Of a stretch of DNA of 64,000 bases, positions 39,554-55,761 are shown piece by piece. The stretch covers positions 1 to 64,000 of the forward strand of contig JADZAS010000003.1 in the NCBI GenBank assembly GCA_020852515.1, read 5' to 3'. The DNA comes from Phycisphaerales bacterium (GTDB lineage Bacteria; Planctomycetota; Phycisphaerae; Phycisphaerales; UBA5793). A program made the translations under genes and the position numbers. The notes under the pieces were generated by a model, which saw only the letters and a program-made list of their open reading frames with translations, made no database searches and had not been told where the DNA came from. Every line of letters starts with the position of its first letter. Position 1 is the first letter of the stretch.

Positions 39554-41104
39554 ATGAGCACCAAGATAACCGCAGACGCAGGACACACGCAACGCACTTT
39601 GACGCGCCGCGACGTGCTCGCCACGAGCGCATTGGCGGGCAGCGCGATGCTCCTCGCCGGGCGAGCCGGCGCACAGCCGCCACAGCCCGACCCCAACCAA
39701 TCGGAGCCGGCCCCACCCCAGCCCGACAAAGACTTCAAGTCCAAGGAGGACAACCCGGCGCGCGAAAACGTGCCGCCCGGCCACGAGCACTTTCCGCCCG
39801 GCGAACCAGGGAAGGACTACACGCCGGTCGTCGTCCCCAACGGCTGGACACTCCCGTACAAGGTGGTGGACGGCGTCAAGGTCTTTCACCTCGTCGCGGA
39901 GGAGGTCGAGCACGAGTTCGCGCCCGGGCTTAAGGCGACGTGCTGGGGGTACAACGGAGGCGTCCACGGGCCGGTGATCGAGGTGGTCGAGGGCGACCGT
40001 GTTCGCATCTTTGTCACCAACAAGCTCACCGCTCCCACCACGATCCACTGGCACGGCGTGCTCCTGCCCAGCGGCATGGACGGCGTCGGAGGACTCTCGC
40101 AGAAGGCGATCCTGCCGGGCGAAACGTTCATGTACGAGTTCACGCTCGTGCAGCATGGCACGCTCATGTACCACAGCCACCACGATGAGATGACCCAGAT
40201 GGGCCTGGGCCTGACCGGCATGTTTGTCATCCACCCGCGCAATCCCAAGGGCCCTCGCCCTGACCGGGACTTTGTCCTCTTACTGCACGAGTGGAAGATC
40301 GACGTCGGCGCCAAGCGGCCCGACCCGAACGAAATGACCGACTTCAACATCCTGACCTTCAACGCCAAGGCGTTCCCGGGCACGCAACCGCTGATCGCCA
40401 AGCGTGGGGACCGGATTCGCATTCGCATCGGCAATCTCAGCGCAATGAGCCACCATCCGATCCATCTGCATGGGTACTACTTCATGATCACCGAGACTGA
40501 TGGCGGCACGATCCCCGATGCCGGACAGTGGCCCGAGACCACGGTGCTCCTTCCCGTCGGAAGCACCCGCACCGTCGAGTTCACGGCTGACAACCCGGGC
40601 GACTGGGCCATGCACTGTCACATGACCCATCACCTCATGAACCAGATGGGAGAGGGGCTGCCAAACATGATCGGGGTCGATACCCGTGGCTTGGACAAGC
40701 AGGTTCGCAACCTCCTCCCCGACTACATGGCGATGGGACAGACGGGCATGGGTGACATGGGCACCATGGGCATGAAGGTTCCCGACAACAGCATTCCGAT
40801 GCTCGGCGCGATCGGTCCCAAGGACGAGATCACGATGGGCGGGATGTTCACGATCCTCAAGGTGCGAGAAACCCTCTCGAACTACGACGAGGATCCCGGC
40901 TGGTACGCCGATCCGCCGGGCACGCTCGCTTCGCTCGCTGCGGCCGAAGCACTCCGACAGAACAGCGTGGCGAACGACGGGAGCACTGCGCCCAGAGCGA
41001 CTGCCGAGGCGATGCGGTCGTGGCCACAGGCAGATCCTGGACGGCTGCACACGCCGTCCGAGAGTCACCGCAATCATGGCAGTCACGATGGAGGTGGGCG
41101 ATGA
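39554..41104 (+). CDS. multicopper oxidase, Tat-exported
   Basis: A 516-aa enzyme. The Tat signal is TLTRRDVLATSALAGSAM. Copper motifs are HWHG (about 165), YHSHHDEM (about 206), HHPIHLHG (about 299) and HCHMTHHLM (about 354), which fit types 1-3. A Met-rich C-terminal segment (MGQTGMGDMGTMGMK) resembles copper-binding tails of CopA/CueO-like enzymes. It probably oxidises Cu(I) to Cu(II) in the periplasm. It overlaps the copZ-like gene by 4 nt. Confidence 0.93.
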   Translation: MSTKITADAGHTQRTLTRRDVLATSALAGSAMLLAGRAGAQPPQPDPNQSEPAPPQPDKDFKSKEDNPARENVPPGHEHFPPGEPGKDYTPVVVPNGWTLPYKVVDGVKVFHLVAEEVEHEFAPGLKATCWGYNGGVHGPVIEVVEGDRVRIFVTNKLTAPTTIHWHGVLLPSGMDGVGGLSQKAILPGETFMYEFTLVQHGTLMYHSHHDEMTQMGLGLTGMFVIHPRNPKGPRPDRDFVLLLHEWKIDVGAKRPDPNEMTDFNILTFNAKAFPGTQPLIAKRGDRIRIRIGNLSAMSHHPIHLHGYYFMITETDGGTIPDAGQWPETTVLLPVGSTRTVEFTADNPGDWAMHCHMTHHLMNQMGEGLPNMIGVDTRGLDKQVRNLLPDYMAMGQTGMGDMGTMGMKVPDNSIPMLGAIGPKDEITMGGMFTILKVRETLSNYDEDPGWYADPPGTLASLAAAEALRQNSVANDGSTAPRATAEAMRSWPQADPGRLHTPSESHRNHGSHDGGGR

Positions 41105-41573: not shown

Positions 41574-43073
41574 ATGGACGACGCAGCGACCCTTCGAGTC
41601 AGGCCTTCGACCGTCATTCGGTCGGCGGGGCACGCGCCGAAGCACCCGCCCCTCCGCAGGATCGCGGAGTGGTTCGGGCGGCGGACGCTGCGGACACAAC
41701 TGCTCCTCGTGGTCAACCTGATTGTCGGCACGGGGTTGATCACGTTTCTCTGCCTCGATTACCGACAGGGCGTGCGCTCCGCCATTCATGCCAAGATTGC
41801 CTCGCTTTCGGATGAGGCGAGGGCGATTGCCGTAGCGATTGAACCGCTTGAGCAGGTTGGCCCAGGCGCAGTTCAGCGTCACATCGATGCCGTTTGCACC
41901 GCGATGGACCAAACAGAATCTCCCGGCCACTCGATCGAGGTGCGTCTCGGAGATCGTTTGCTGCTATCTCATCCGTCTTTGCATGGAGAATCCCACGATC
42001 CCGACGTTGCGGAAGGCGAGTCAAGAGTGGTCGGTCAGGCGTCCTTGAACGACGTGCAAGTGGCTGTTTCGGAGCGGACATCGGGGGCCGTTCGCAGGAC
42101 GCAACGTGAGGCGGTGCTTCGAGCATCGATCATTGCCGCATCGGCCCTCGTCGGCGCCGGACTGATTAATCTGTTGCTCCTTCGTTTGGTCAACGCGCCG
42201 ATTCGCGATCTGACGACATTCGTGCGCGGAGTTGGTCGCGGCGAATTCGGATTGTCCTTGAATACGGGCGGGAGCGCCGAACTGACCTACCTGGCAAACG
42301 AAGTCTCCGCCATGAGCCGCGAACTCGCCCGGCGCGAGAGAGACCGTCAGCGTCAACTCAGCCGCGCTCGACAACTTCAAAATCACCTCATGTCGGGCAA
42401 GAACGCCAATTGTCACCGTTGGTCCGCCACGGCATTCCAGCCGGCCGACGAAGTTGCGGGCGACTTTGCCGAGATCATGGATCTCGACGACGGCTCGGTG
42501 CTGATTTGCCTGGCGGATGTCTCCGGTCACGGCATTGCCGCCGCGATGGGCGCCGCCATGGTCAAGGCGCTACTGCTCTCACTCGACCTGTCAAGGCGGA
42601 CGCCGGCGGACCTGCTGAACCAGATGAATGCCCGCTATCTCGACGCGAGTCTTCCCGATGACTTTGTCTCCATGATTGTCGTTCGCATCAGCGCGGCGAG
42701 GGATGCCGCCACCTATGCGAGCGCGGGTCACGAGACCTGCTACATTCGCCGACACGTTGGCCAGGTGATGGAACTGCGATCGACGGGAACTCTGTTGGGC
42801 ATGTGTGACGATGCGGATTGTCAGGATGCCACGGTGCCCATGATGGCCGGCGACACCATCGTTCTGGTCTCCGATGGGGTGTCGGAAGCGATGAATGAGA
42901 ACGGCGACCTTTACGGCCGGCCCAGGCTTGTCGAACTGATTGCCGCCTCTTCCTCGCACACGCCAGAACAATTGGTCACGCAGATCTGTGATGATGTGGA
43001 GCGCCACCGTCGATCTGCCCGCCGCGCAGATGATATGACCATCGTAGCGTTCACGATCGATTCTCAGAATTGA
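41574..43073 (+). CDS. HAMP-SpoIIE membrane phosphatase sensor
   Basis: A 499-aa protein. Two membrane segments (LLLVVNLIVGTGLITFLCLD, about residue 45; ASIIAASALVGAGLINLLLL, about 190) bracket a periplasmic sensor region. A HAMP linker is followed by a SpoIIE/PP2C phosphatase domain (about 280-495) with GDFAEIMDLDDGSVLICLAD, VSGHGIAAAMG and DTIVLVSDGVSEA. Such enzymes usually act on anti-sigma antagonists. This suggests a partner-switching signal for the metal island, but no partner is coded here. Confidence 0.9.
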   Translation: MDDAATLRVRPSTVIRSAGHAPKHPPLRRIAEWFGRRTLRTQLLLVVNLIVGTGLITFLCLDYRQGVRSAIHAKIASLSDEARAIAVAIEPLEQVGPGAVQRHIDAVCTAMDQTESPGHSIEVRLGDRLLLSHPSLHGESHDPDVAEGESRVVGQASLNDVQVAVSERTSGAVRRTQREAVLRASIIAASALVGAGLINLLLLRLVNAPIRDLTTFVRGVGRGEFGLSLNTGGSAELTYLANEVSAMSRELARRERDRQRQLSRARQLQNHLMSGKNANCHRWSATAFQPADEVAGDFAEIMDLDDGSVLICLADVSGHGIAAAMGAAMVKALLLSLDLSRRTPADLLNQMNARYLDASLPDDFVSMIVVRISAARDAATYASAGHETCYIRRHVGQVMELRSTGTLLGMCDDADCQDATVPMMAGDTIVLVSDGVSEAMNENGDLYGRPRLVELIAASSSHTPEQLVTQICDDVERHRRSARRADDMTIVAFTIDSQN

Positions 43074-43292: not shown

Positions 43293-43557
43293 CGTCAGGC
43301 GGGCAGGTTTCGCCCTGGGATCCGCGTGCGGCCTGTTCTACATCGGCTGCGTCTTTGTGATGCTCACATCGCCCCACGATGCCGTGGTCCGGTTCTTCAA
43401 TAGCATCCTGCACGGCTGGAATGTCGAGCCCATCATGCGCTGGGACATGCCATGGTGGGAGGCGGCGATCGGCGTGGTCGAGATCACTATTCTCGGCTGG
43501 CTCTTCGGCGCGATGGTGGCGGCGCTCTACAACATCAGTGTGCGACTGTGGAGATGA
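43279..43557 (+). CDS. DUF5676-like membrane protein
   Basis: A 92-aa protein with two membrane helices (ALGSACGLFYIGCVFVMLTS; AAIGVVEITILGWLFGAMVA) and WDMPWWEA between them. AAGGAGG precedes ATG at 43279, inside the previous gene. Its location between a copper-type DUF2933 gene and the P1B ATPase matches known metal clusters. The function is unknown. Confidence 0.75.
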   Translation: MKAIDVRRAGFALGSACGLFYIGCVFVMLTSPHDAVVRFFNSILHGWNVEPIMRWDMPWWEAAIGVVEITILGWLFGAMVAALYNISVRLWR

Positions 43558-43559
43558 AC

Positions 43560-45665
43560 ATGCACGAGCACGGTCGACACCAACCAGCCCGCAACGAGGA
43601 TCAAGAGCGCTCGGAACGCCAGGGTGCCGCACACACTTCGCCTGCACGCCAGGAGGAGCACACCCATCCTGAGGCTGAGGGCGAGAGCGGGCACGATCAC
43701 CGCAGCCACCACGCGCACATGGTGGCCGACTTCCGCCGGCGGTTCTGGATCTCCCTGGTCCTCACGGTCCCGGTCGTCGCCCTGGCCCCCATGATTCAGC
43801 GCTGGTTGGGGCTGGCGGAGATTCTGCGCTTCTCCGGCGATGCGTACCTCCAGTTCGCTCTGGGCTCGATTGTCTACTTCTATGGCGGCTGGCCGTTCCT
43901 TAAGGGTCTGTTCGTCGAGTTGCGCCATCGAATGCCCGGCATGATGACGCTGATTGCCCTGGCCATCTCGGTCGCGTACTTCTACTCGAGTGCCGTGGTG
44001 TTCGGGCTGAAAGGCGAGGTGTTCTTCTGGGAACTGGCAACGCTTATCGACATTATGCTGCTCGGTCACTGGATCGAGATGCGTTCAGTCATGGGCGCCT
44101 CGGCGGCGCTGGAGACGCTTGTCCGCCTGATGCCCTCTGAAGCGCACCTCGTGATGGAGGATGGCAACACGCGCGACGTAAAGGTCATTAGTCTCGCGCA
44201 TGGAGACAGAACGCTCATCAAGCCCGGCGAGAAGATTCCCACGGACGGCGTAGTCGTCGAGGGTCGCTCGACTGTCAACGAGTCCATGCTGACCGGCGAG
44301 AGCACGCCGGTCGAGAAGGGTGAGGGCGATCAGGTCATCGGCGGAGCCATCAACGGCGAAGCCTCGCTCATCGTCGAAGTGCAAAAAACCGGCGATCAGA
44401 CGTACCTCTCGCAGGTCGTCGAGATGGTCCGCCAGGCGCAGGAGTCCAAGTCCCGGACGCAGGACCTTGCAAACCGAGCCGCGTTGTGGCTGACGATCAT
44501 CGCGATTTCCGTCGGTGCCGTCACGATGGTGACTTGGACGCTACTGGGCAAGCCCTTTGACTTTGCGCTGGAGAGGACTGTGACGGTCATGGTCATCGCA
44601 TGTCCGCACGCGCTGGGGCTGGCCGTACCTCTCGTGGTGTCGGTATCCACGGCCATCGCGGCCCGCAACGGGCTGCTCATTCGCGACCGAAGCGCATTTG
44701 AACGGGCGCGTGACCTCAATGCCATCGTCTTTGACAAGACAGGCACACTCACCGAGGGACGCTTCGGCGTAACGGACGTCATTTCGGTCGGGCGCCGATC
44801 GACGGATGAACTGCTCACCCTTGCTGCGGGCCTCGAAAGTCAGTCCGAGCACCCGATCGGCGAAGGTGTCGTGCGGGGCGCGGAAGAGCGCGGCCTGAAG
44901 TACAGCGCACCTCAGGAGTTCAAGGCCATCGCCGGCAAAGGCGCAGAGGCGCTGGTTGACGGGACACGACTCAAGATCGTCAGTCCAGGCTACCTGAGGG
45001 AAAACAACCTCACTGTCAAAGATGATCGCATCGTCAAGGTCGCCGAGGAGGGCAAGACCGTCGTTTATTTGGTCATCGATGACAGCGTCGAGGGGGCCAT
45101 CGCGCTAGCAGACATCATCCGGCCTGAGTCGCGCGAAGCCCTGAGTCGACTCAAGGAGATGGGAATCCAGGTCATGATGCTGACCGGCGATGCAAAGGCG
45201 GTCGCGAAGTGGGTATCAGGTGAACTTGGATTAGACGAGTATTTCGCCGAGGTTCTGCCGGATCAGAAGGCGTCAAAGATCAAAGAAATCCAATCGCGCG
45301 GCCTGGTGGTCGCAATGACCGGCGATGGGGTCAACGATGCGCCCGCGCTCACCCAGGCGGATGTCGGCATCGCGGTGGGTGCGGGAACAGATGTGGCCAT
45401 CGAGTCGGCCGACATCGTGCTCGTTCGCTCTGACCCGCGTGATGTAACCGCCGTCGTCGAACTCGCACGAGCGACCTATCGCAAGATGGTCCAGAACCTC
45501 TGGTGGGCGACGGGCTACAACGCGTTTGCAATCCCGCTTGCCGCAGGCGTGCTCAGCGGAATGGGCATTGTGCTCTCCCCGGCTGTCGGAGCGGCACTGA
45601 TGTCACTGTCGACCGTGGTTGTGGCTATCAATGCCCGTTTCCTTCGCGTGGAACGCTTGGATTGA
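43560..45665 (+). CDS. copB: CopB-type copper-translocating P1B ATPase
   Basis: A 701-aa P-type ATPase. The His-rich N-terminus (HTHPEAEGESGHDHRSHHAH) replaces an HMA domain. The transport motif is ACPHALG (CPH), characteristic of P1B-3 Cu(II)/Ag/Cu(I) exporters. Other motifs are TGES in MLTGESTPVEKG, the phosphorylation site FDKTGTLTEG and the hinge MTGDGVNDAPAL. ATG at 43560 follows GGAG by 6 nt. It pumps copper from cytoplasm to periplasm. Confidence 0.95.
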   Translation: MHEHGRHQPARNEDQERSERQGAAHTSPARQEEHTHPEAEGESGHDHRSHHAHMVADFRRRFWISLVLTVPVVALAPMIQRWLGLAEILRFSGDAYLQFALGSIVYFYGGWPFLKGLFVELRHRMPGMMTLIALAISVAYFYSSAVVFGLKGEVFFWELATLIDIMLLGHWIEMRSVMGASAALETLVRLMPSEAHLVMEDGNTRDVKVISLAHGDRTLIKPGEKIPTDGVVVEGRSTVNESMLTGESTPVEKGEGDQVIGGAINGEASLIVEVQKTGDQTYLSQVVEMVRQAQESKSRTQDLANRAALWLTIIAISVGAVTMVTWTLLGKPFDFALERTVTVMVIACPHALGLAVPLVVSVSTAIAARNGLLIRDRSAFERARDLNAIVFDKTGTLTEGRFGVTDVISVGRRSTDELLTLAAGLESQSEHPIGEGVVRGAEERGLKYSAPQEFKAIAGKGAEALVDGTRLKIVSPGYLRENNLTVKDDRIVKVAEEGKTVVYLVIDDSVEGAIALADIIRPESREALSRLKEMGIQVMMLTGDAKAVAKWVSGELGLDEYFAEVLPDQKASKIKEIQSRGLVVAMTGDGVNDAPALTQADVGIAVGAGTDVAIESADIVLVRSDPRDVTAVVELARATYRKMVQNLWWATGYNAFAIPLAAGVLSGMGIVLSPAVGAALMSLSTVVVAINARFLRVERLD

Positions 45666-45719: not shown

Positions 45720-46052
45720 ATGGATACCGCAGTTACATTCGTTCGAGCATCCCAGCGCATGAACGGTCATTGCCCCTCCGGGAGCACCGTATCGTCACGT
45801 GGAAAGCGCGAGGCAGTGCGCCAATTGGCGCGTCTATCTCGTTGCGTTCAGTTCGCACGCTCCCGCGCATCGCGACCCCTTCCACGTTGGGGATCTCAGG
45901 CGTATCTCCGCAGTCACTGGGATGGACTCCAGGCTTTGGAGTTCAGGGGTTCCGGTTTCGGATTCCTGATCATGTGTGAAAGGGCCGCGCGCGCAAAAAC
46001 CACTCGCGCGCATGAAGCAATTCTCCATTCTACGAAAGGAACATTATCATGA
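45720..46052 (+). CDS. doubtful 110-aa gene
   Basis: An AAGGAG site precedes the ATG, and the stop overlaps the start of the next gene. The sequence is basic and low in hydrophobic pattern (SSRGKREAVRQLARLSRC). No motif is visible. It may be real, a decayed gene, or chance. Confidence 0.3.
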   Translation: MDTAVTFVRASQRMNGHCPSGSTVSSRGKREAVRQLARLSRCVQFARSRASRPLPRWGSQAYLRSHWDGLQALEFRGSGFGFLIMCERAARAKTTRAHEAILHSTKGTLS

Positions 46053-47047
46053 CACGTACACGGACTTCAAGAATTCTCGCCATCGTGGCCTCGTTGCTGG
46101 CCTCCACAGGGAGAATCTCGGGCACGCTGGCGCAATCGACGCCTTCGGCCGACGCCACACATTCGCAGCATGCTCAGCACGCTGACGCTGCGAAACCGGA
46201 TGCGCCTCTGGTCGAGCCTTCCATGAAGGATTTGATTGATCAGCTCGCTGCACTGCGTGGCGAGATTGCCAAATTGCAGGCCGCACTGTCGCAGGGCCAT
46301 GCTTCGTCGCAGGGGATGTCGCCGCCTCCCGCTCAAAATGAGATGCAGCGTCGTATGGGCAAGGGTCCGATGGGAGAGGCGCCGGCGCTGGCGACGGCTG
46401 GCGGTGTCGGCGGGATGTCAGGCAAATCCGGGCCGCCGGGGATGGCCGGCGGTGGCATGGGCAGGTCGGATATGGACATGAAGACGATGGGCAGTGGGAC
46501 GTCCGGCGGCGCCTCTGGAGTGGGAGGCAGGATGGACCAGATGATGAAGATGATGGGCATGGGTGAGATGCCTATGGGCGGCGCTGGCAGTCCTGCGATC
46601 ATGAACATGCCCTCGGCACTCCCCGGCTTCCCTGGCGCATCGCATATCTACCACATTGGCGCCACCGGCTTCTTCCTCGATCACACGGAGCATATCACAC
46701 TGACGCTTGAGCAGCGGACTGCGCTTAACCAGCAGAAGGAGCAGACTCTGCTCCGTCAGGCCGAGTTGCAGCGGATGATCGAGCAGGCCGAGCAGGAACT
46801 TTGGCTGCTGACCGCCGCCGATCAGCCCGATGCCGTGGCGATTGAGCAGAAGGTGCAGGAGGTCGCGCGGAAGCAGGGCGAACAGCGGCTGGCGTTCATC
46901 CGTGCGGTGGGCGAGGCTGCGCGCCTGCTCACCGATGAACAGCGCCAGCAACTCACCGGGATGCTTCCGCCAGCGCCAACATCTTCGGTCCCGACCTCTC
47001 CGCGAGCGCCGGCCGCGACCCAGGGCGGCGGTATGGACGACATGTGA
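46049..47047 (+). CDS. Met-rich periplasmic CpxP/Spy-like protein
   Basis: A 332-aa protein with a signal peptide and then a His/Ala segment (HSQHAQHADAAK). A long Met/Gly-rich region follows (MDQMMKMMGMGEMPMGG and nearby) that suits Cu(I) or Ag(I). The C-terminal half is helical with two LTxxQ-type motifs (LTLEQRTALNQQ and LTDEQRQQLTGM), as in CpxP/Spy chaperones. It may buffer metal and protect envelope proteins. Confidence 0.8.
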   Translation: MTRTRTSRILAIVASLLASTGRISGTLAQSTPSADATHSQHAQHADAAKPDAPLVEPSMKDLIDQLAALRGEIAKLQAALSQGHASSQGMSPPPAQNEMQRRMGKGPMGEAPALATAGGVGGMSGKSGPPGMAGGGMGRSDMDMKTMGSGTSGGASGVGGRMDQMMKMMGMGEMPMGGAGSPAIMNMPSALPGFPGASHIYHIGATGFFLDHTEHITLTLEQRTALNQQKEQTLLRQAELQRMIEQAEQELWLLTAADQPDAVAIEQKVQEVARKQGEQRLAFIRAVGEAARLLTDEQRQQLTGMLPPAPTSSVPTSPRAPAATQGGGMDDM

Positions 47048-47085
47048 ACCAAACCCAGTGCACTTCGAAAGACGGGAGACTCCCC

Positions 47086-47385
47086 ATGACCAAGACTGTT
47101 CAATCAACCAAGATTCGGTCCCACACCTTCACCGTGGCCGCCCCTCGATCGAGGGAGGTTCTCATCGCCGGCTCGTTCAACGCCTGGAAGGGCCAGCCCA
47201 TGAAGCGAAGTCGATCCGGTGAGTGGTCTGCGAGCATTGATCTGAAGCCGGGCCGCCACGAATTCAAGTTCATCATCGATGGCGAGTGGTGTTGTGAGTT
47301 CGGTTGCGATGGGCCGCACGAAGGCTGCCCCAAGTGCGTGCGCAACTCGTTTGGCACGATGAACCGCGTGCTCGAGATCCACTGA
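47086..47385 (+). CDS. solitary CBM48/AMPK-type glycogen-binding domain
   Basis: A 99-aa protein that is essentially one AMPK/isoamylase N-domain: VLIAGSFNAWKGQPMKR, then GEWSASIDLKPGRHEFKFII. Four cysteines follow in WCCEFGCDGPHEGCPKC. The cysteine-rich tail is unusual for this fold and could bind metal. It is a small cytoplasmic or exported protein with no signal peptide visible. Confidence 0.8.
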   Translation: MTKTVQSTKIRSHTFTVAAPRSREVLIAGSFNAWKGQPMKRSRSGEWSASIDLKPGRHEFKFIIDGEWCCEFGCDGPHEGCPKCVRNSFGTMNRVLEIH

Positions 47386-47396
47386 GGATTCACCCT

Positions 47397-47801
47397 GTGG
47401 ACGAACAACGGCGGTTCCAACTTCGTCGCGTCATCCTCTGGACGGCGGCCATCGCTTTGCTGCACTTTCTGGTGGGCACACGGACGCACGCCCTGCATGG
47501 ACTGCACATCCTGCTCGCCGGATTGTTTTTCATGCCCATCCTGGTCGGCGCGGTTACGTTCGGAACGCGCGGAGGTGTCCTGGCAGCACTGGCGGCTGGC
47601 GTGCTTTACCTCGCTCACCTCCTGTGGTCCTGGCGAGGGTCGGGACTCGGTAACGCGGACCAGTACGCCATGATCGGCGTGTACTTCATCGTCGGGATCG
47701 TCGCGGGCCGCCTAGTGAGTGTCGCCAACTTCCGCAAGTGGCAGCGCGACGAAGTCGTTCGGCGTGCGTATCGGGAGTCGTTGGGAGCCAAGGACAAATG
47801 A
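47397..47801 (+). CDS. small membrane protein similar to sensor-kinase N-termini
   Basis: A 134-aa protein with GTG start after GAGG. It has four hydrophobic stretches (VILWTAAIALLHFLVG; ILLAGLFFMPILVGAV; GGVLAALAAGVLYLAHLL; YAMIGVYFIVGIVAGRLV), as in the input modules of some histidine kinases, but no kinase domain. The stop overlaps the next gene by 4 nt. It may be a truncated sensor or a free-standing membrane subunit of the redox chain. Confidence 0.65.
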   Translation: MDEQRRFQLRRVILWTAAIALLHFLVGTRTHALHGLHILLAGLFFMPILVGAVTFGTRGGVLAALAAGVLYLAHLLWSWRGSGLGNADQYAMIGVYFIVGIVAGRLVSVANFRKWQRDEVVRRAYRESLGAKDK

Positions 47802-49537
47802 TTCGACCGCACTTCTCATCGACGCTTGCGACGGTGATCGCCCTCACGTTCACGATCCTGCTGGGCGCTCAGGTCACTCAGGACGAGCACGCCAGCCATC
47901 ATCCAGGTCAGGACAGCCCCACCGAGGTTGGCGTTCCGTCCGGTGGGGCGGGGGGGATGGAAGGCATGGCCGAGATGATGCAGGGGATGGGTGCTCCCCC
48001 GCCCAAGGAGCTCTACCCGACGCTCATGGAGCTTTCGGGCCTGCCGCCGGAGAAGCGGGCGGAAGTGAAAGCGGCAGCCCACGACCGCATGAAGAGTGGC
48101 ACCGTGTTGATGGCCGAGGGACTTGATCGACTAGTGCGTGCTGCTCCGACGGACGATTACCAAGCGATGCAAGAGGCGGTCGCGCTGCTGCGCGAAGGGA
48201 TGGCGCGATTCGACAGTGGCCTCGCCGCGCACCGCGCGCTCTCCGAGAATCAGGACGGACGAACCATCGCCATGAACTGGTTCAGGTCGCAGATGAACCT
48301 GCCCGGATCACCGGCGCCCGCGGAACAATGGTCCCTCCTCGGCCTCTCGGCGGCGCACCTCGCACTCATGGTGATTCTCATCGGCTTTGCGCTGGCAATG
48401 ATCGCCATGTACTTCTTGAAGATGCGCCGCGCCTCGACGCTGCTGCGGCGTCTCACCGAGGCGCCGCGCGGTCCGTGGGGCGGCTCCCTCCGCGTGGCAC
48501 GGATCTTCGCCGAAACGCCATCCATCAAGACCTTCCGCCTGCTCGAACCCGTCGGCGGCCCAATCCCGTTTACCTTCCTCCCCGGACAATTCCTGACCCT
48601 CACGGTCGCCCGAGACGGCAGGACCGTCAAGCGTTCGTACACGATCGCATCGTCGCCAGCGCAGCGCGATTACATCGAGATTACCGTGAAGCGTGAGGAA
48701 CAGGGATTCGTCTCACGGTATCTCTGCGATGAAGTCCGCGAGGGGACGCTTCTCCAAGTGTCTGCGCCGCAGGGCTATTTAACGTTCACCGGCAAGGAAG
48801 CCGAGAGCATCGTGCTGATCGGCGCCGGCGTGGGGATCACGCCCCTGATGAGCGTGATTCGTTACCTCACCGATCGGGCGTGGCCCAAGGACATTTACCT
48901 GCTCTTCTCATGTCGTACGCCCGATCAGTTTGCCTTCGGCGCCGAACTTGAACACTTGCACCGCCGCCACGCGAACCTTCATGTCGTTGCCACAGTGACT
49001 GGGGCTGACGGAACTGAGTGGACCGGCTTGCGCGGCCGATTCACCAAAGAATTGATCTCACAGTCAGTACCGGACATTGCCAGCCGGCGCGTTCACCTTT
49101 GCGGCCCTGCGCCGATGATGGACGTCACGCGTGCGATGCTGCTCGAACTCGGGGTGGCTGCAGCGAGCATCATGTCCGAGGGCTTCGGTCCGCCACCGGG
49201 TCAAAGGCCGCACGAGCGCCAGATCGCGTTTGAGGCCGCCGTGGCGCAAGCGGATCCGGATGCCCCAGAAGTGCCAAGCGTGCTCTTCACAATCTCCGGC
49301 AAGACCGCGCAACTACCAGCAGACATGAGCGTCTTGGAAGCCGCCGAGCACGTCGGAGTTTCGATCGACTACTCCTGCCGCGTCGGCACCTGCGGGGCCT
49401 GCAAGGTCAAACTCCGCAAGGGCGCGGTCACAATGGCCGTCGAGGAAGGTCTGCCGCCCGCGGACAAAACCCGCGGCATCATCCTCGCATGTCAAGCCAA
49501 GGCGTTCGGTGGCGAAAGCTTGGAGGTGGAAGCCTGA
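47798..49537 (+). CDS. membrane-anchored FAD/NAD(P) reductase with 2Fe-2S domain
   Basis: A 579-aa three-part oxidoreductase. After a signal segment comes a Met/His region (residues about 25-80) and a membrane helix (HLALMVILIGFALAMIAMYF, near residue 190). The FAD-binding domain has RSYTIASSP and the NAD(P)-binding domain has IGAGVGITPLMS. The C-terminal plant-type ferredoxin has CRVGTCGACKVKL plus a later C. It would pass electrons from NAD(P)H to the following cytochrome. Confidence 0.92.
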   Translation: MIRPHFSSTLATVIALTFTILLGAQVTQDEHASHHPGQDSPTEVGVPSGGAGGMEGMAEMMQGMGAPPPKELYPTLMELSGLPPEKRAEVKAAAHDRMKSGTVLMAEGLDRLVRAAPTDDYQAMQEAVALLREGMARFDSGLAAHRALSENQDGRTIAMNWFRSQMNLPGSPAPAEQWSLLGLSAAHLALMVILIGFALAMIAMYFLKMRRASTLLRRLTEAPRGPWGGSLRVARIFAETPSIKTFRLLEPVGGPIPFTFLPGQFLTLTVARDGRTVKRSYTIASSPAQRDYIEITVKREEQGFVSRYLCDEVREGTLLQVSAPQGYLTFTGKEAESIVLIGAGVGITPLMSVIRYLTDRAWPKDIYLLFSCRTPDQFAFGAELEHLHRRHANLHVVATVTGADGTEWTGLRGRFTKELISQSVPDIASRRVHLCGPAPMMDVTRAMLLELGVAAASIMSEGFGPPPGQRPHERQIAFEAAVAQADPDAPEVPSVLFTISGKTAQLPADMSVLEAAEHVGVSIDYSCRVGTCGACKVKLRKGAVTMAVEEGLPPADKTRGIILACQAKAFGGESLEVEA

Positions 49538-49539
49538 AC

Positions 49540-50313
49540 ATGCAGGAGCGTGAGCGCGTCATCGTGAGTTGTCTGGTCGTCCTGCTGCTGGTGCTGGCGG
49601 CGGGTTTCGTGTTCCATCGCGATGAGCGATTCGCCGGAAGCCTGGCGGGCGGCATCCTCGGCATCTCGGCCGCGGCCTTGATGTTCGTGCCGCTGCTGTA
49701 CCTGTTCATCAAGCGGATTCCGTTCCTGAAGCGAAGGATCGTGTCGCACGTCTCGATGCGTACGCTGCTGGCGATCCACATCTACGCGGGGATCGTCGGG
49801 CCGATCCTGGCCATCCTTCACAGCAGCCACAAGTTCAACAGCACGGTGGGGATCGCGCTGACGCTGATGATGCTCATCGTTGTCGTGAGCGGCTTCGTCG
49901 GCCGGTACCTCATGGGCCGCGTTTTGACTGACATCCGCGAGAAGCAAGTCACGCTCACAGCCCTCCAGAAACAGTATGACGCTCTGGCATCTGATCTCGT
50001 CGTGAATCCTGAGGCTGTCGTGCGCATCCGCCGAAGGTCGAGCGTCTTCGGACGCCTCGCGGCTCCGTTCTTTGTTTCATCGAGGGGCGGCGGACTATCC
50101 GGGGAGTCGCTCGACCCGGTCGCGAAGGCCGTGTCGCTGTCGGAGTCCATCGCCGACATGGAGTACGCGATCCGCACGCAGCAAGCAGCCAAGGACGCGT
50201 TCGGCAAGTGGCTCGCGTGCCACATCGTCATCGCGATAATCCTCTACACGCTTCTGGTGCTGCACATCTGGTCCGAGTGGTATTTCGGAATCCGGTGGCT
50301 CGTCCCGCAATGA
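49540..50313 (+). CDS. b-type cytochrome-like membrane protein
   Basis: A 257-aa protein with about four membrane helices. Histidines in LAIHIYAGIVGPILAILHSS and in CHIVIAIILYTLLVLHIW are placed to bind two b-type hemes, as in ferric-reductase or cytochrome b561-like folds. The stop overlaps the cytochrome c start by 4 nt. It probably conducts electrons across the membrane between the flavin reductase and the multiheme protein. Confidence 0.8.
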   Translation: MQERERVIVSCLVVLLLVLAAGFVFHRDERFAGSLAGGILGISAAALMFVPLLYLFIKRIPFLKRRIVSHVSMRTLLAIHIYAGIVGPILAILHSSHKFNSTVGIALTLMMLIVVVSGFVGRYLMGRVLTDIREKQVTLTALQKQYDALASDLVVNPEAVVRIRRRSSVFGRLAAPFFVSSRGGGLSGESLDPVAKAVSLSESIADMEYAIRTQQAAKDAFGKWLACHIVIAIILYTLLVLHIWSEWYFGIRWLVPQ

Positions 50314-51080
50314 CACCGCTGCCGCTCATCTATGGTGTTGTAACGATCGGCGCTCTTGCCGCTGCGATCGGCATCCCCGCAGTCATGCACAAGCGAGGAT
50401 CGACGGCCGTTTCGACATGGCAAGCGATGGTGAGTCCCGGCGATCTCTCTGCCAAGCACGCGTTTCTTGAAACGAACTGTGAAGCGTGTCACACCCCTCA
50501 CCGTGGAGTAACCGCTGACAGGTGCATCGTCTGCCATGCGAGCAACGAGCTGTTGTTATCCCAGCAGACGACTGCCTTTCACGCGAATGTTACGGATTGT
50601 CGCGGATGTCACATCGAACATGGCGGAGCGGCGCACCGGCCGGTATTGATGGATCACATGGTGCTGGCGCGCATCGGCATGAGCCGCTCGAAGTTCAACC
50701 TTGCTTTTGGAGGAGTGAAGGTGTCGTCGCTCCCAGCTGGCCACCCGCGCATTCGGCCGGAGGAAACACTACTCGATTGCGCTGCGTGCCACTCAAACCA
50801 GGATCCTCACCGCATGTTGTTTGGAACAGATTGCGCCTCCTGCCACGGCACGAGCACGACGACGGCGTGGACGATCCCAGAGTTCCGCCATCCATCAGCG
50901 CTCTCGACCGACTGCGCCCAGTGCCACCAAGCGCCGCCAAGCCATTACATGATGCACTTCCAGATGGTCTCAATGACAGTCGCTGGTATTGCGCACGCGG
51001 ACGTATCGCAGTGCTTTCTCTGTCACCAGATCAATTCGTGGAACGACATCAAGGGAGTCGGTTGGTACAAGCACCACTAG
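50310..51080 (+). CDS. seven-heme cytochrome c
   Basis: A 256-aa protein with an N-terminal anchor and seven C-x-x-C-H motifs (CEACH, CIVCH, CRGCH, CAACH, CASCH, CAQCH, CFLCH). These are spread through the periplasmic part, with extra histidines that could serve as distal ligands. Together with the two previous genes it forms a reductase-cytochrome chain. The electron acceptor is not indicated by the sequence. Confidence 0.93.
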   Translation: MTPLPLIYGVVTIGALAAAIGIPAVMHKRGSTAVSTWQAMVSPGDLSAKHAFLETNCEACHTPHRGVTADRCIVCHASNELLLSQQTTAFHANVTDCRGCHIEHGGAAHRPVLMDHMVLARIGMSRSKFNLAFGGVKVSSLPAGHPRIRPEETLLDCAACHSNQDPHRMLFGTDCASCHGTSTTTAWTIPEFRHPSALSTDCAQCHQAPPSHYMMHFQMVSMTVAGIAHADVSQCFLCHQINSWNDIKGVGWYKHH

Positions 51081-51105: not shown

Positions 51106-51937
51106 ATGAATGAATCCGTTCGCACACTTGTCATCGCTGTTGGCGTAGCATGGGCGGCGCTGTTTCTGTTGGCGTTGGCGCTGACGTATTTACCGCGCGC
51201 CGTATCGAAGGGTGGCGCCGGGATCTGGTGGGGCGCACGCGCGCCCTGGCTTGATGTCATCGTGGCGGCGCTGACATGGATTCCGTGGATCATCGCTGGA
51301 ATTGCCGGCGGCTGGGCCGCCGTGGCTGGGACCATGCTTGGACAAGTCGTCGCGCTCTACTCATGGATTGCACTGCACGAACTCGTGCATCGTCGCGGTC
51401 GTGGGAGCGCAAGACTGGTGGGCTACATCAGTCGACATTACGGCCGTTGGCGGAACCATGCGGCGTTGATCGTCACGTTGATCGGGCTGCCAGTTCTCTG
51501 GCCGATTCGCCTGACCGAGATCATCGCATACCCTGCGTTGATCTGGCTGCTGGGATTTCCGCGTTACCGCCACGGCGATTGGGTGAACATCAGTCGTCAG
51601 AAGTTCGACGGCTTGATTGGCCATGATCTGATCTGGTGCCTGTACTGCGACTGGATGACCGGCGTATATGCCCTGGGCGGCGAAATGCTCCGCAATGTCG
51701 AATCGTTCTGGTGCCCGATACGCTTCTACGACGGCAAGAAGTGCGAGAAATTGCCACATCGACTTTCCCGATCTCGATCACGGCTGGGTGGCTGCGGATG
51801 GCTCAATGCAGGACGTCGAGGCGCTCATGCGGCAGAAGTATCCGCGAGGGCAGCAACCTGCCTGGTTTGGACACTCAGTTCGGTTGACCGTGAATGAAGG
51901 ATCGAACGGGCCAGGCTTGCAACGAGGTGATGCATGA
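51106..51937 (+). pseudogene. frameshifted membrane protein with CxxC motifs
   Basis: The intact part (about residues 1-214) has five hydrophobic segments and a LIWCLYCDWMTG CxxC. At 51748-51750 an AAA run shifts the frame. Removing one A restores GKKCENCHIDFPDLDHG and continues to 51937, where the stop overlaps the next start by 4 nt. The restored form has a C-x-x-C-H. It follows the heptaheme gene and may have been part of the chain. Either a true mutation or a sequencing error. Confidence 0.75.
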
Positions 51938-53200: not shown

Positions 53201-54271
53201 ATGACAAAGGAAAAAGGTATCGTCATCGTGACGGGCTCCAACGGGAGGATCGGCGATGCCGTCATGCGGCGATTCGTCGGGCGCTTCAGCGATGTGGTCG
53301 GCTTCGACCGCAAGGCGCCTGGTCCGCCGCCGCCCGGATGCACGCACATCCCCGTCGAGATCACGTCGGACGAGAGCGTGCGAGAAGGGCTGCGCGCCGT
53401 CCGCGAGCATCACGGGACGCGCGTCGTCTCGGTGATCCACCTGGCCGCCTACTACGATTTCTTCGGTGAGCCGAGCACGAAATACGACGAGATCACGGTG
53501 CGCGGCACGGGGCGCCTGCTGCGCGGGCTGCGCGACGCCGGCTTGCGCGTCGAACAGTTCGTCTTCTCCAGCACGATGCTCGTGCATCGCCCGGCCGAGC
53601 CGGGACAGTTCATCAACGAAGACTGGCCGATCGAGCCGACGTGGGCGTACCCGGAATCGAAAGTCCGCACCGAGCAGCTCATCCACGCCGAGCGCGGCCA
53701 GGTGCCCGCCGTGCTGCTGCGCATCGCCGGCGTGTACGACGACCAGTGCCACTCGATCCCGCTGGCCCACCAGATGCAGCGCATCAGCGAGCGGCAGTTC
53801 ACCAGCCGCATCTATTCCGGCAGCACGTCGCACGGCCAATCGTTCCTGCACATGGACGATCTGGTGGACGCCATCGCGCTCACGGTCGAGCGCCGCGCCG
53901 CACTGCCGCCGGAAGTGCCGATCCTGCTGGGCGAGCCCGAGCCGCTCAGTTACGACGAGCTCCAGCACACCTTCTCCCGCCTGATCCACGGCGAGGAGTG
54001 GGAGACGCTCCAGGTCCCCGGCGTGCTCGCGCCGCTGGCCAAGGCCGGCACGTGGGTGATGGGGAAACTCCCCGGCGCCAACCCGTTCATCAAGTCGTGG
54101 ATGATCGACCGCGCCAACGACCACTACGCGCTGGACATCACCCGCGCCCGCAACCTGCTCGACTGGTCCCCGCGGCGGAGCCTGCGCGAGACGATTCCCA
54201 AGATGGTCGCCGCGCTCAAAACCGACCCAGACGGCTTTTATCGCGAGAACGATCTCACCGGAAAGTCTTGA
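53201..54271 (+). CDS. NAD-dependent epimerase/dehydratase family protein
   Basis: A 356-aa extended SDR. The Rossmann motif is VTGSNGRIGDAVM (residues 10-22), the catalytic region has WAYPESKVRTEQ (Y-x-x-x-K) and an FSSTM serine segment. The C-terminal part with FLHMDDLVDAI is typical. The substrate is unknown. Its gene is 41 bp before the SPW-VKOR gene, a pairing I believe is recurrent. It may modify a cell-envelope sugar or reduce a substrate. Confidence 0.88.
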   Translation: MTKEKGIVIVTGSNGRIGDAVMRRFVGRFSDVVGFDRKAPGPPPPGCTHIPVEITSDESVREGLRAVREHHGTRVVSVIHLAAYYDFFGEPSTKYDEITVRGTGRLLRGLRDAGLRVEQFVFSSTMLVHRPAEPGQFINEDWPIEPTWAYPESKVRTEQLIHAERGQVPAVLLRIAGVYDDQCHSIPLAHQMQRISERQFTSRIYSGSTSHGQSFLHMDDLVDAIALTVERRAALPPEVPILLGEPEPLSYDELQHTFSRLIHGEEWETLQVPGVLAPLAKAGTWVMGKLPGANPFIKSWMIDRANDHYALDITRARNLLDWSPRRSLRETIPKMVAALKTDPDGFYRENDLTGKS

Positions 54272-54312
54272 TGGCGCCGGTCCGCTCGCTCGCGACCAAT
54301 CGGAGAACGCCA

Positions 54313-55761
54313 ATGGAATCAAATCATGGCCAAGCCGCGCCGCGAGGACACGATACCCACGCGCCACAGGGTGAGATTCCGACCCATCATAGTGAGGTGG
54401 GCGGCGAGCACGATCACGCGACGATGATGCGCGACATGCTCGCCCAATGGGTCTGGCGGGACTTCGCCAACATCATCCTCGGGCTGTGGCTGCTCACCGC
54501 GCCATTCACCTTCGGCTATCGCAGCGCGGCGATGACCTGGAGCGACATCATCAGCGGCGCGATCATCGCCCTTCTGGGCGTGATGACGCTCTGGCCGCGC
54601 CTCGACCTGGCGCGGTGGGGCATCTGCTTCACGGGCCTCTGGCTGCTCTTCGCCCCGCTGGTCTTCTGGTCGCCTGATGCGGCCGGCTACGCAAACGACA
54701 CGCTGATCGGCGCTCTGGTTATCGCTTTCTCCGTGCTCATTCCGATGATGCCGGGCAAGGCCCACCACAAGTTGATGACGACGCCGGGCCCGCAGATTCC
54801 GCCGGGGTGGAGCTACAACCCTTCGACGTGGCTTCAGCGCGGACCGATCATCGCGCTGGCGCTGGTGGGCTTCTTCATCTCGCGCTACCTCGCGGCCTAT
54901 CAACTCGGCTACATCAATCATGCGTGGGATCCGTTCTTCGCTGGAGGAGAAGGCACACGAAAGGTGCTGGATTCGGAGGTCTCGAAGATGTTCCCCATCT
55001 CCGACGCGGGGCTGGGCGCGGCGGCGTACCTGATCGAAGCGCTTTCGGGGTTCATGGGCGGCCGAGACCGCTGGCGCACCATGCCCTGGATGGTGGCAAT
55101 GTTCGGCGCGCTGGTCATTCCGCTTGGAATCGTCAGCATCGTGCTGATCATCCTCCAGCCGGTGGCCGTCGGCGCGTGGTGCATGCTCTGCCTGATTACG
55201 GCGGCGGCGATGCTGGTCATGATCTCGCCGGCCCTGGACGAGGTGATCGCAATGCTTCAGTTCCTCCTCGGCGCCCGCCGCGAAGGCAAGCCGTTGTGGC
55301 GGACGTTCTGGCTCGGCGGAACGCTCGACAGCGGCAACGCGACCGGCGGCGGTGCGATGAAGCCATCGGATCGTTCCCGGTCGGCGGCGAGCGAGGTCAT
55401 CAGGGCAATGAACCTGGACAATGTCCCCTGGAACATGATCGCCAGCGCGGCGCTGGGCGTGTGGCTGATGTTCACCCCGAGCGTCCTGGGCGTGAGCGAC
55501 GCCGCGGCGCACAGCCATCACGTCGTCGGCGCACTGATCGTTACCTGGTCGGTCATCGCCTTCGGCGAAGTCGCGCGCAGCGTGCGATTCCTGAACGTCG
55601 TGATGGCTTTGTGGGTGGCGGCGGCGCCGTGGTTCCTGTCCGGCGCCGGCGCCGGCGCGCGCTGGAACGCCATCATCGTCGGCGCCGCCCTGATCCTGCT
55701 CAGCCTCCGTCGCGGAGAAGTTCGGGAACGTTACGGGAGTTGGAACCGATACATGGTTTGA
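54313..55761 (+). CDS. SPW-repeat protein with a central VKOR domain
   Basis: A 482-aa membrane protein. SPW-type repeats at both ends: GLWLLTAPFTFGY, TGLWLLFAPLVFWSP, LGVWLMFTPSVLG and MALWVAAAPWFL. Between them (about residues 170-310) lies a vitamin K epoxide reductase-like bundle with GAWCMLCLITAAAMLVM (C-x-x-C). The His/Asp-rich N-terminus has HHSEVGGEHDH. GGAG precedes ATG at 54313; a start at 54271 is also possible. It probably helps form disulfide bonds in the envelope. Confidence 0.88.
   Translation: MESNHGQAAPRGHDTHAPQGEIPTHHSEVGGEHDHATMMRDMLAQWVWRDFANIILGLWLLTAPFTFGYRSAAMTWSDIISGAIIALLGVMTLWPRLDLARWGICFTGLWLLFAPLVFWSPDAAGYANDTLIGALVIAFSVLIPMMPGKAHHKLMTTPGPQIPPGWSYNPSTWLQRGPIIALALVGFFISRYLAAYQLGYINHAWDPFFAGGEGTRKVLDSEVSKMFPISDAGLGAAAYLIEALSGFMGGRDRWRTMPWMVAMFGALVIPLGIVSIVLIILQPVAVGAWCMLCLITAAAMLVMISPALDEVIAMLQFLLGARREGKPLWRTFWLGGTLDSGNATGGGAMKPSDRSRSAASEVIRAMNLDNVPWNMIASAALGVWLMFTPSVLGVSDAAAHSHHVVGALIVTWSVIAFGEVARSVRFLNVVMALWVAAAPWFLSGAGAGARWNAIIVGAALILLSLRRGEVRERYGSWNRYMV

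Follow-up and report, generated by a model that had tools for sequence, protein, structure and literature searches.

Accounts of copper resistance usually name export, Cu(I) oxidation and sequestration; at the locus described here, a copper cluster also holds genes that look like an electron path across the membrane. The locus lies in the first 64,000 nucleotides (the window) of contig JADZAS010000003.1 from a Phycisphaerales bacterium (Planctomycetota; GenBank assembly GCA_020852515.1), where genes for a reductase (47798-49537, 579 amino acids), a membrane protein (49540-50313, 257 amino acids) and a multiheme cytochrome c (50310-51080, 256 amino acids) follow one another on the + strand, the first two 2 bp apart and the last two overlapping by 4 bp. 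A first-pass annotation, made from the letters alone, had proposed this coupled trio, and all three genes are present as placed. From comparison of their sequences and neighbourhoods we consider it fairly likely that the trio forms a transmembrane conduit for electrons from NAD(P)H to the periplasm and that it belongs to copper-resistance clusters.

The three proteins and their conserved ligands

The reductase matches FAD_binding_6, NAD_binding_1 and Fer2 above the Pfam cut-offs, in agreement with its first description as a flavin/2Fe-2S enzyme. It has the motifs of the PDR/GbcB/Hcr class, namely RxYTxxS for FAD, GxGxTP for NAD and a plant-type CX4CX2CX29C cluster region (49376-49492, + strand), of which C527, C532, C535 and C565 are invariant in 85 sequences. 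The nearest curated families (GbcB, Hcr and PaaE) align from residue 230-231 on and below their cut-offs, and the best NCBIfam equivalog, GbcB, is not passed (227.5 bits, cut-off 500). The C-terminal part of a structure model matches the fold of phthalate dioxygenase reductase (2pia) and of 7ylr. Hence the C-terminal 350 residues are like those of phthalate dioxygenase reductase, GbcB and Hcr in domains, motifs and fold, but those enzymes are soluble, whereas the reductase of the trio adds 230 residues with a signal peptide, a Met/His-rich part and a membrane helix.

This extra part starts with a signal-like helix (residues 6-24) and continues with a Met/His-rich stretch opened by the HxxHH motif HASHH (47888-47902, + strand), a modelled helical region (84-165) and a membrane helix (188-206; 48359-48415, + strand; hydropathy 2.62). 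H187 stands directly before the membrane helix and KMRR after it; R211 is also invariant, and the FAD and NAD motifs, the cluster Cys and H187 are invariant or nearly so in the relatives. By the positive-inside rule KMRR would mark the cytoplasmic side, so hydropathy and charge predict a secreted N-terminal part in the periplasm and a cytoplasmic redox part. The Met/His-rich region, which the first-pass annotation had singled out as uncommon, is conserved: HxxHH and a Met-rich stretch (median 6 Met per 54 residues) occur in all 69 full-length reductases with an anchorable segment, and in most of the remaining 11 they can be seen by eye.

The membrane subunit has five hydrophobic helices by hydropathy and six invariant His in 87 sequences (H26, H80, H94, H97, H228 and H242). 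H80/H94 and H228/H242, each pair spaced by 14 residues, lie in predicted helices 3 and 5 and agree with the arrangement in the ferric reductase family, where two His pairs with a spacing of about 13-14 residues are placed in two membrane helices. Two such pairs are what one would expect for two hemes lying one above the other in the membrane, so the subunit is a probable di-heme b cytochrome. The earlier assignment to b-type cytochromes therefore stands as far as the His pairs go and finds no counterpart in family models, as the subunit has no match in Pfam (E<=1), NCBIfam or the PDB sequences. Among the Pfam matches of its relatives DUF4405 and Ferric_reduct are the commonest, all below threshold (best E 0.005). 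We rejected membership of Ferric_reduct (PF01794), DUF4405 or b561 on these sub-threshold scores, and kinship with MsrQ or YodB by hhalign, which gave a probability of 0.1 on a 0-100 scale for E. coli MsrQ and a negative result for YodB. The subunit appears to resemble a ferric-reductase-type di-heme protein in its working, and not, in these searches, by family. Existing annotations call it a hypothetical protein or an 'iron reductase'. At one locus (L042:9001-10638) and about a dozen others a DUF547 domain is fused to its C-terminus, on the predicted periplasmic side.

The cytochrome contains exactly seven CXXCH motifs, in agreement with its first description as heptaheme, and the same holds for 86 of 87 cytochromes, the exception being cut by a contig end. 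Exactly seven further His are invariant (H50, H91, H104, H116, H167, H194 and H212), from which we predict seven six-coordinate hemes, probably all of them bis-His. A membrane anchor is found at residues 4-22. With such ligation the protein looks like a wire and not like an enzyme whose heme has a free position for catalysis, and reduction would occur at an exposed heme edge or on a bound copper protein. It passes the Pfam models Cytochrom_c3_2 (PF14537; 30.1 bits, cut-off 25), PF02085 and PF14522, and hence has both a family model and predicted bis-His ligation in common with the class III cytochromes, but those have four (c3) or three (c7) hemes compared with seven here. PDB sequence searches with the whole cytochrome profile gave no relative. 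The cytochrome c assembly genes are present in the window's genome.

Conservation, spread and the copper link

Related loci numbered 235 in one scan of genome contigs, made with the alignment of the membrane subunit, and 80 of them were retained for analysis. The trio is in the same order at all 80, with a few copies cut by contig ends or insertions, and this fixed order together with the constancy of seven hemes is more than chance. The loci span about ten phyla, including Planctomycetota, Pseudomonadota (with Legionella, Thalassolituus and Parahaliea), Nitrospirota, Nitrospinota, Verrucomicrobiota and Hydrogenedentota. The phyla are intermixed in the tree, which suggests transfer between them, with the caveat that bins can be contaminated. 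The membrane subunit also occurs on 52 plasmids, 26 of them predicted to be conjugative; the trio is on all ten plasmids inspected, and in nine of these it has copper genes or a multicopper oxidase in its vicinity. The search for the trio in other copper clusters, proposed with the first-pass annotation, hence succeeds both on plasmids and in the genomes of many phyla. No relatives were found on viral contigs. Literature searches returned no paper on the trio and none naming the system, and papers on Alteromonas plasmids and copper mention the hydrogenase and copper genes and not the cytochrome, so the trio seems to be nameless and without a known function in the literature.

To count neighbours we used 37 dereplicated loci with full flanks and took as copper markers a multicopper oxidase, a Cu-ATPase, CopB or an RND metal pump within ~9 kb, identified with the models copper_res_A, CopB, ATPase-IB1_Cu and CusA/CzcA. 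A marker is present at 26 of the 37 loci, or at 31 when the Met-rich gene described below is counted. The window's genome (4.7 Mb) has one copper_res_A-like place and two Cu-ATPases above cut-off, and that oxidase and the better of the ATPases are both in the trio cluster. Among Planctomycetota genomes, a multicopper oxidase is found in 9 of 11 with the trio and in 77 of 381 others (p ~3e-5).

The cluster has a further member that the first-pass annotation, which began the operon at the reductase, had missed. This gene (46049-47047, + strand) encodes a Met-rich periplasmic protein with a conserved LPGFPGASHIYHIGATGFF motif, preceded in the family by 110 residues with a median of 24% Met, and a Spy/Metal_resist-like C-terminal domain. 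The isolated C-terminal part scores 34.1 bits against Metal_resist (cut-off 29.2) and the full protein 25 bits; 27 of 30 relatives match the same model, and the family profile matches Spy structures (E 8e-4). Strong matches to the membrane subunit occur in 10 of 392 Planctomycetota genomes and strong matches to the cytochrome in the same 10, with the genes adjacent; in an eleventh genome the cytochrome gene lies at a contig end. The Met-rich protein has matches in exactly these 11 genomes and in none of the others, a coincidence with a chance of ~1e-21 if the genomes were independent; as they are related, the true figure is less extreme. This exact co-occurrence places the Met-rich gene within the system in Planctomycetota. 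The trio is the core, and the Met-rich protein a regular partner in that one phylum; a copy is also present in a Methyloversatilis bin. Since the trio is conserved in copper clusters and co-occurs with the Met-rich gene, its link to metal is supported, and copper may be the substrate. Conservation of the trio with non-metal operons, which would speak against such a link, is not seen at most loci.

In the window the chain of genes extends upstream of the trio (all on the + strand). A small membrane gene (47397-47801), DUF4118-like below cut-off and fused to an HD domain in several relatives (L016, L037), overlaps the reductase start. The Met-rich gene overlaps by 4 bp a gene for a small protein with an AMPK1_CBM/CBM48 glycogen-recognition fold (47044-47385; Pfam AMPK1_CBM 4e-14), which adjoins the trio in several related loci. 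Glycogen-related genes (AMPK1_CBM/CBM48, glgP, isoamylase, debranching enzyme and GH15) recur with the trio in other copper islands too (L136, L138, L139 and L151). Further upstream in the same cluster are a copper-translocating P-type ATPase (43452-45665; TIGR01511, 621.6 bits, cut-off 397), given here as the longest open reading frame with a start that may be later, a membrane SpoIIE-type phosphatase (41574-43073), and the multicopper oxidase (39554-41104), identified by Pfam. The phosphatase is a probable regulator and is retained in the copper clusters of relatives (orthologues in L015 and L016). Directly after the cytochrome lies an open reading frame (51106-51897, 263 amino acids) that has no Pfam match and is not among the recurrent neighbours, and at 53641-55761 there is one with a VKOR domain as well as SPW repeats; its first part overlaps another gene and may be spurious. 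Elsewhere the cytochrome gene often has a DUF1622 membrane gene after it (L037:10544-10885 and 14 other loci), and in Salinimonas a second gene for a 2Fe-2S protein, immediately ahead of CopC/CopD (L150:1-109), is possibly another reductase-copper pairing. Predicted promoters and terminators were no more frequent than in shuffled sequence.

A proposed electron path and its rivals

In the path that we propose, NAD(P)H would give its electrons in the cytoplasm to the FAD of the reductase and thence to its plant-type [2Fe-2S] cluster. They would go on to a heme b on the cytoplasmic side of the membrane subunit and a second one stacked towards the periplasm, and then through seven bis-His c hemes on the periplasmic face to the acceptor. 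The acceptor would be Cu(II), reduced to Cu(I), which would be caught by the HxxHH/Met segment of the reductase itself and, in Planctomycetota, by the separate Met-rich Spy-like protein, and then stored or exported by an RND pump. The first-pass annotation had proposed the flow from NAD(P)H through the membrane to the seven-heme protein; it fits all conserved features, and metal reduction, a respiratory bypass or redox repair could each be its purpose. The sequences show the proteins with their invariant ligands, the constant gene order, the co-occurrence and the copper genes nearby, from which we infer hemes, topology, direction and acceptor. Because of the copper neighbours and Met-rich partners we tentatively favour periplasmic Cu(II), with capture of Cu(I) by the Met-rich protein, as the likeliest acceptor. 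We regard as rather doubtful a more specific reading, in which the trio would be a bacterial cupric reductase dedicated to that task: an NAD(P)H-driven wire of three parts across the membrane, with a seven-heme arm in the periplasm, that supplies Cu(I) to efflux pumps and to Met-rich proteins for storage and that plasmids have carried across many phyla.

Several observations weigh against this explanation of a conduit in copper clusters that reduces Cu(II). At about 11 of the 37 full-flank loci none of the copper markers (oxidase, Cu-ATPase, CopB, RND pump) lies within ~9 kb, and at 6 of the 37 the Met-rich gene is missing too. The Met-rich partner is absent or barely detectable in trio-bearing genomes of three Legionella, Thalassolituus and Parahaliea, and likewise in Methylocystis. 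Any Cu(I) produced could be oxidised again by the neighbouring multicopper oxidase in a futile cycle, a fold search with the membrane-subunit model gave no relative (E no better than 0.3), and the glutamate dehydrogenase, N-type ATPase and hydrogenase genes among the neighbours point to energy metabolism.

The main rival is a respiratory bypass. Once copper has damaged 4Fe-4S dehydrogenases, a copper-tough route of FAD, 2Fe-2S and heme could oxidise NAD(P)H in their place, with periplasmic cytochromes and a terminal oxidase receiving the electrons; it would protect metabolism and leave copper itself unchanged. Glutamate dehydrogenase is encoded near 33 of the 80 loci across phyla (for example L080:5474-6841), an alternate (N-type) F1F0 ATPase operon adjoins the trio in Legionella, both in chromosomes (upstream in L071-L076, L098 and L101-L104) and on an L. 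fallonii plasmid (L140:1-5903), and Ccm genes and glgP adjoin one plasmid copy. However, no oxidase gene is a constant neighbour, and such a bypass leaves unexplained both the conserved Met/His periplasmic segment and the strict Met-rich partner in Planctomycetota. We regard it as unlikely.

The electrons could also rescue oxidised Met or disulfides of Met-rich, copper-exposed periplasmic proteins, in the manner of MsrPQ. MsrQ binds heme in the membrane and receives its electrons from a flavin reductase in the cytoplasm, which is the plan predicted for the trio, and Met-rich proteins are its constant partners in Planctomycetota. Yet MsrP does not need a seven-heme carrier, no MsrP-like or thiol enzyme is found in the listed trio operons, and the membrane subunit scores next to nothing against E. 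coli MsrQ, which makes this reading quite unlikely. MsrP is likewise not seen among the annotated plasmid neighbours of the trio, a set narrower than whole genomes, in which it was not searched for. A slimmer prospect still is that the same wire serves another metal, be it silver, iron, mercury, tellurite or gold: CusA/CzcA-type RND pumps also handle other metals and one of the plasmid copies has a mer cluster in its vicinity, but the commonest neighbours match copper-specific models (copper_res_A, CopB and ATPase-IB1_Cu). Least probable is the reverse flow, in which a periplasmic donor such as hydrogenase would reduce NAD+ through the cytochromes, as the [NiFe]-hydrogenase cluster directly after the trio on an Alteromonas plasmid (L135:16801-26755) might suggest, since hydrogenase is absent from the recurrent neighbour clusters and has shrunk to hypE and hypothetical genes at the same place in Salinimonas (L150:13063-14073), where the trio and copper genes remain, for which reason we rejected it as a general electron partner.

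Relation to known systems and meaning

The eukaryotic metalloreductases Fre and Steap also reduce Cu(II) (PMC7558416). They and NOX have a plan in common with the trio: the donor in the cell is NAD(P)H, FAD and one or more membrane b hemes held by His pairs follow, and the acceptor is reduced outside, the hemes being predicted for the trio. In contrast, the trio is split over three proteins, has a [2Fe-2S] cluster and, in the periplasm, an arm of seven hemes as additions, and its membrane subunit does not pass the Ferric_reduct model. If it does reduce Cu(II), the trio would be a bacterial counterpart of Fre and Steap. With E. coli MsrPQ and Fre it shares, as predicted, the plan of a heme membrane subunit, a cytoplasmic flavin reductase as donor and electrons sent to the periplasm, but it has a heptaheme cytochrome, its annotated plasmid neighbours include no MsrP, and its membrane subunit has no detectable profile similarity to MsrQ.

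A specific bacterial cupric reductase is known in CcoG, which converts Cu(II) to Cu(I) at the membrane (PMC7558416), and this possible reaction is at most what the two systems have in common: CcoG carries a pair of 4Fe-4S clusters and works in the assembly of cbb3 oxidase, whereas the trio has a [2Fe-2S] domain only and no 4Fe-4S. Planctomycetes also have pairs of a cytochrome b and a multiheme cytochrome (L020 and L021), in which a distantly related membrane subunit (hhalign probability 87) lies beside a multiheme cytochrome. Their cytoplasmic donors differ: in L020 the membrane part is fused to a 4Fe-4S/pyridine-nucleotide oxidoreductase, and in L021 the donor is a cNMP-binding 4Fe-4S protein. 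They have no Met-rich partner. Next to these pairs, the copper trio looks like a single specialised branch within a family of modular wires.

The trio is common and, it appears, widely transferred, with ~235 loci in one scan and 52 plasmids, and some of the genera that carry it are open to genetic work in the laboratory. If the outward electron module is real, controlled reduction or a copper-tough electron outlet would be a regular part of copper resistance. If the trio is indeed a cupric reductase, reduction would join export and oxidation by multicopper oxidases as a third way of dealing with copper in the periplasm.

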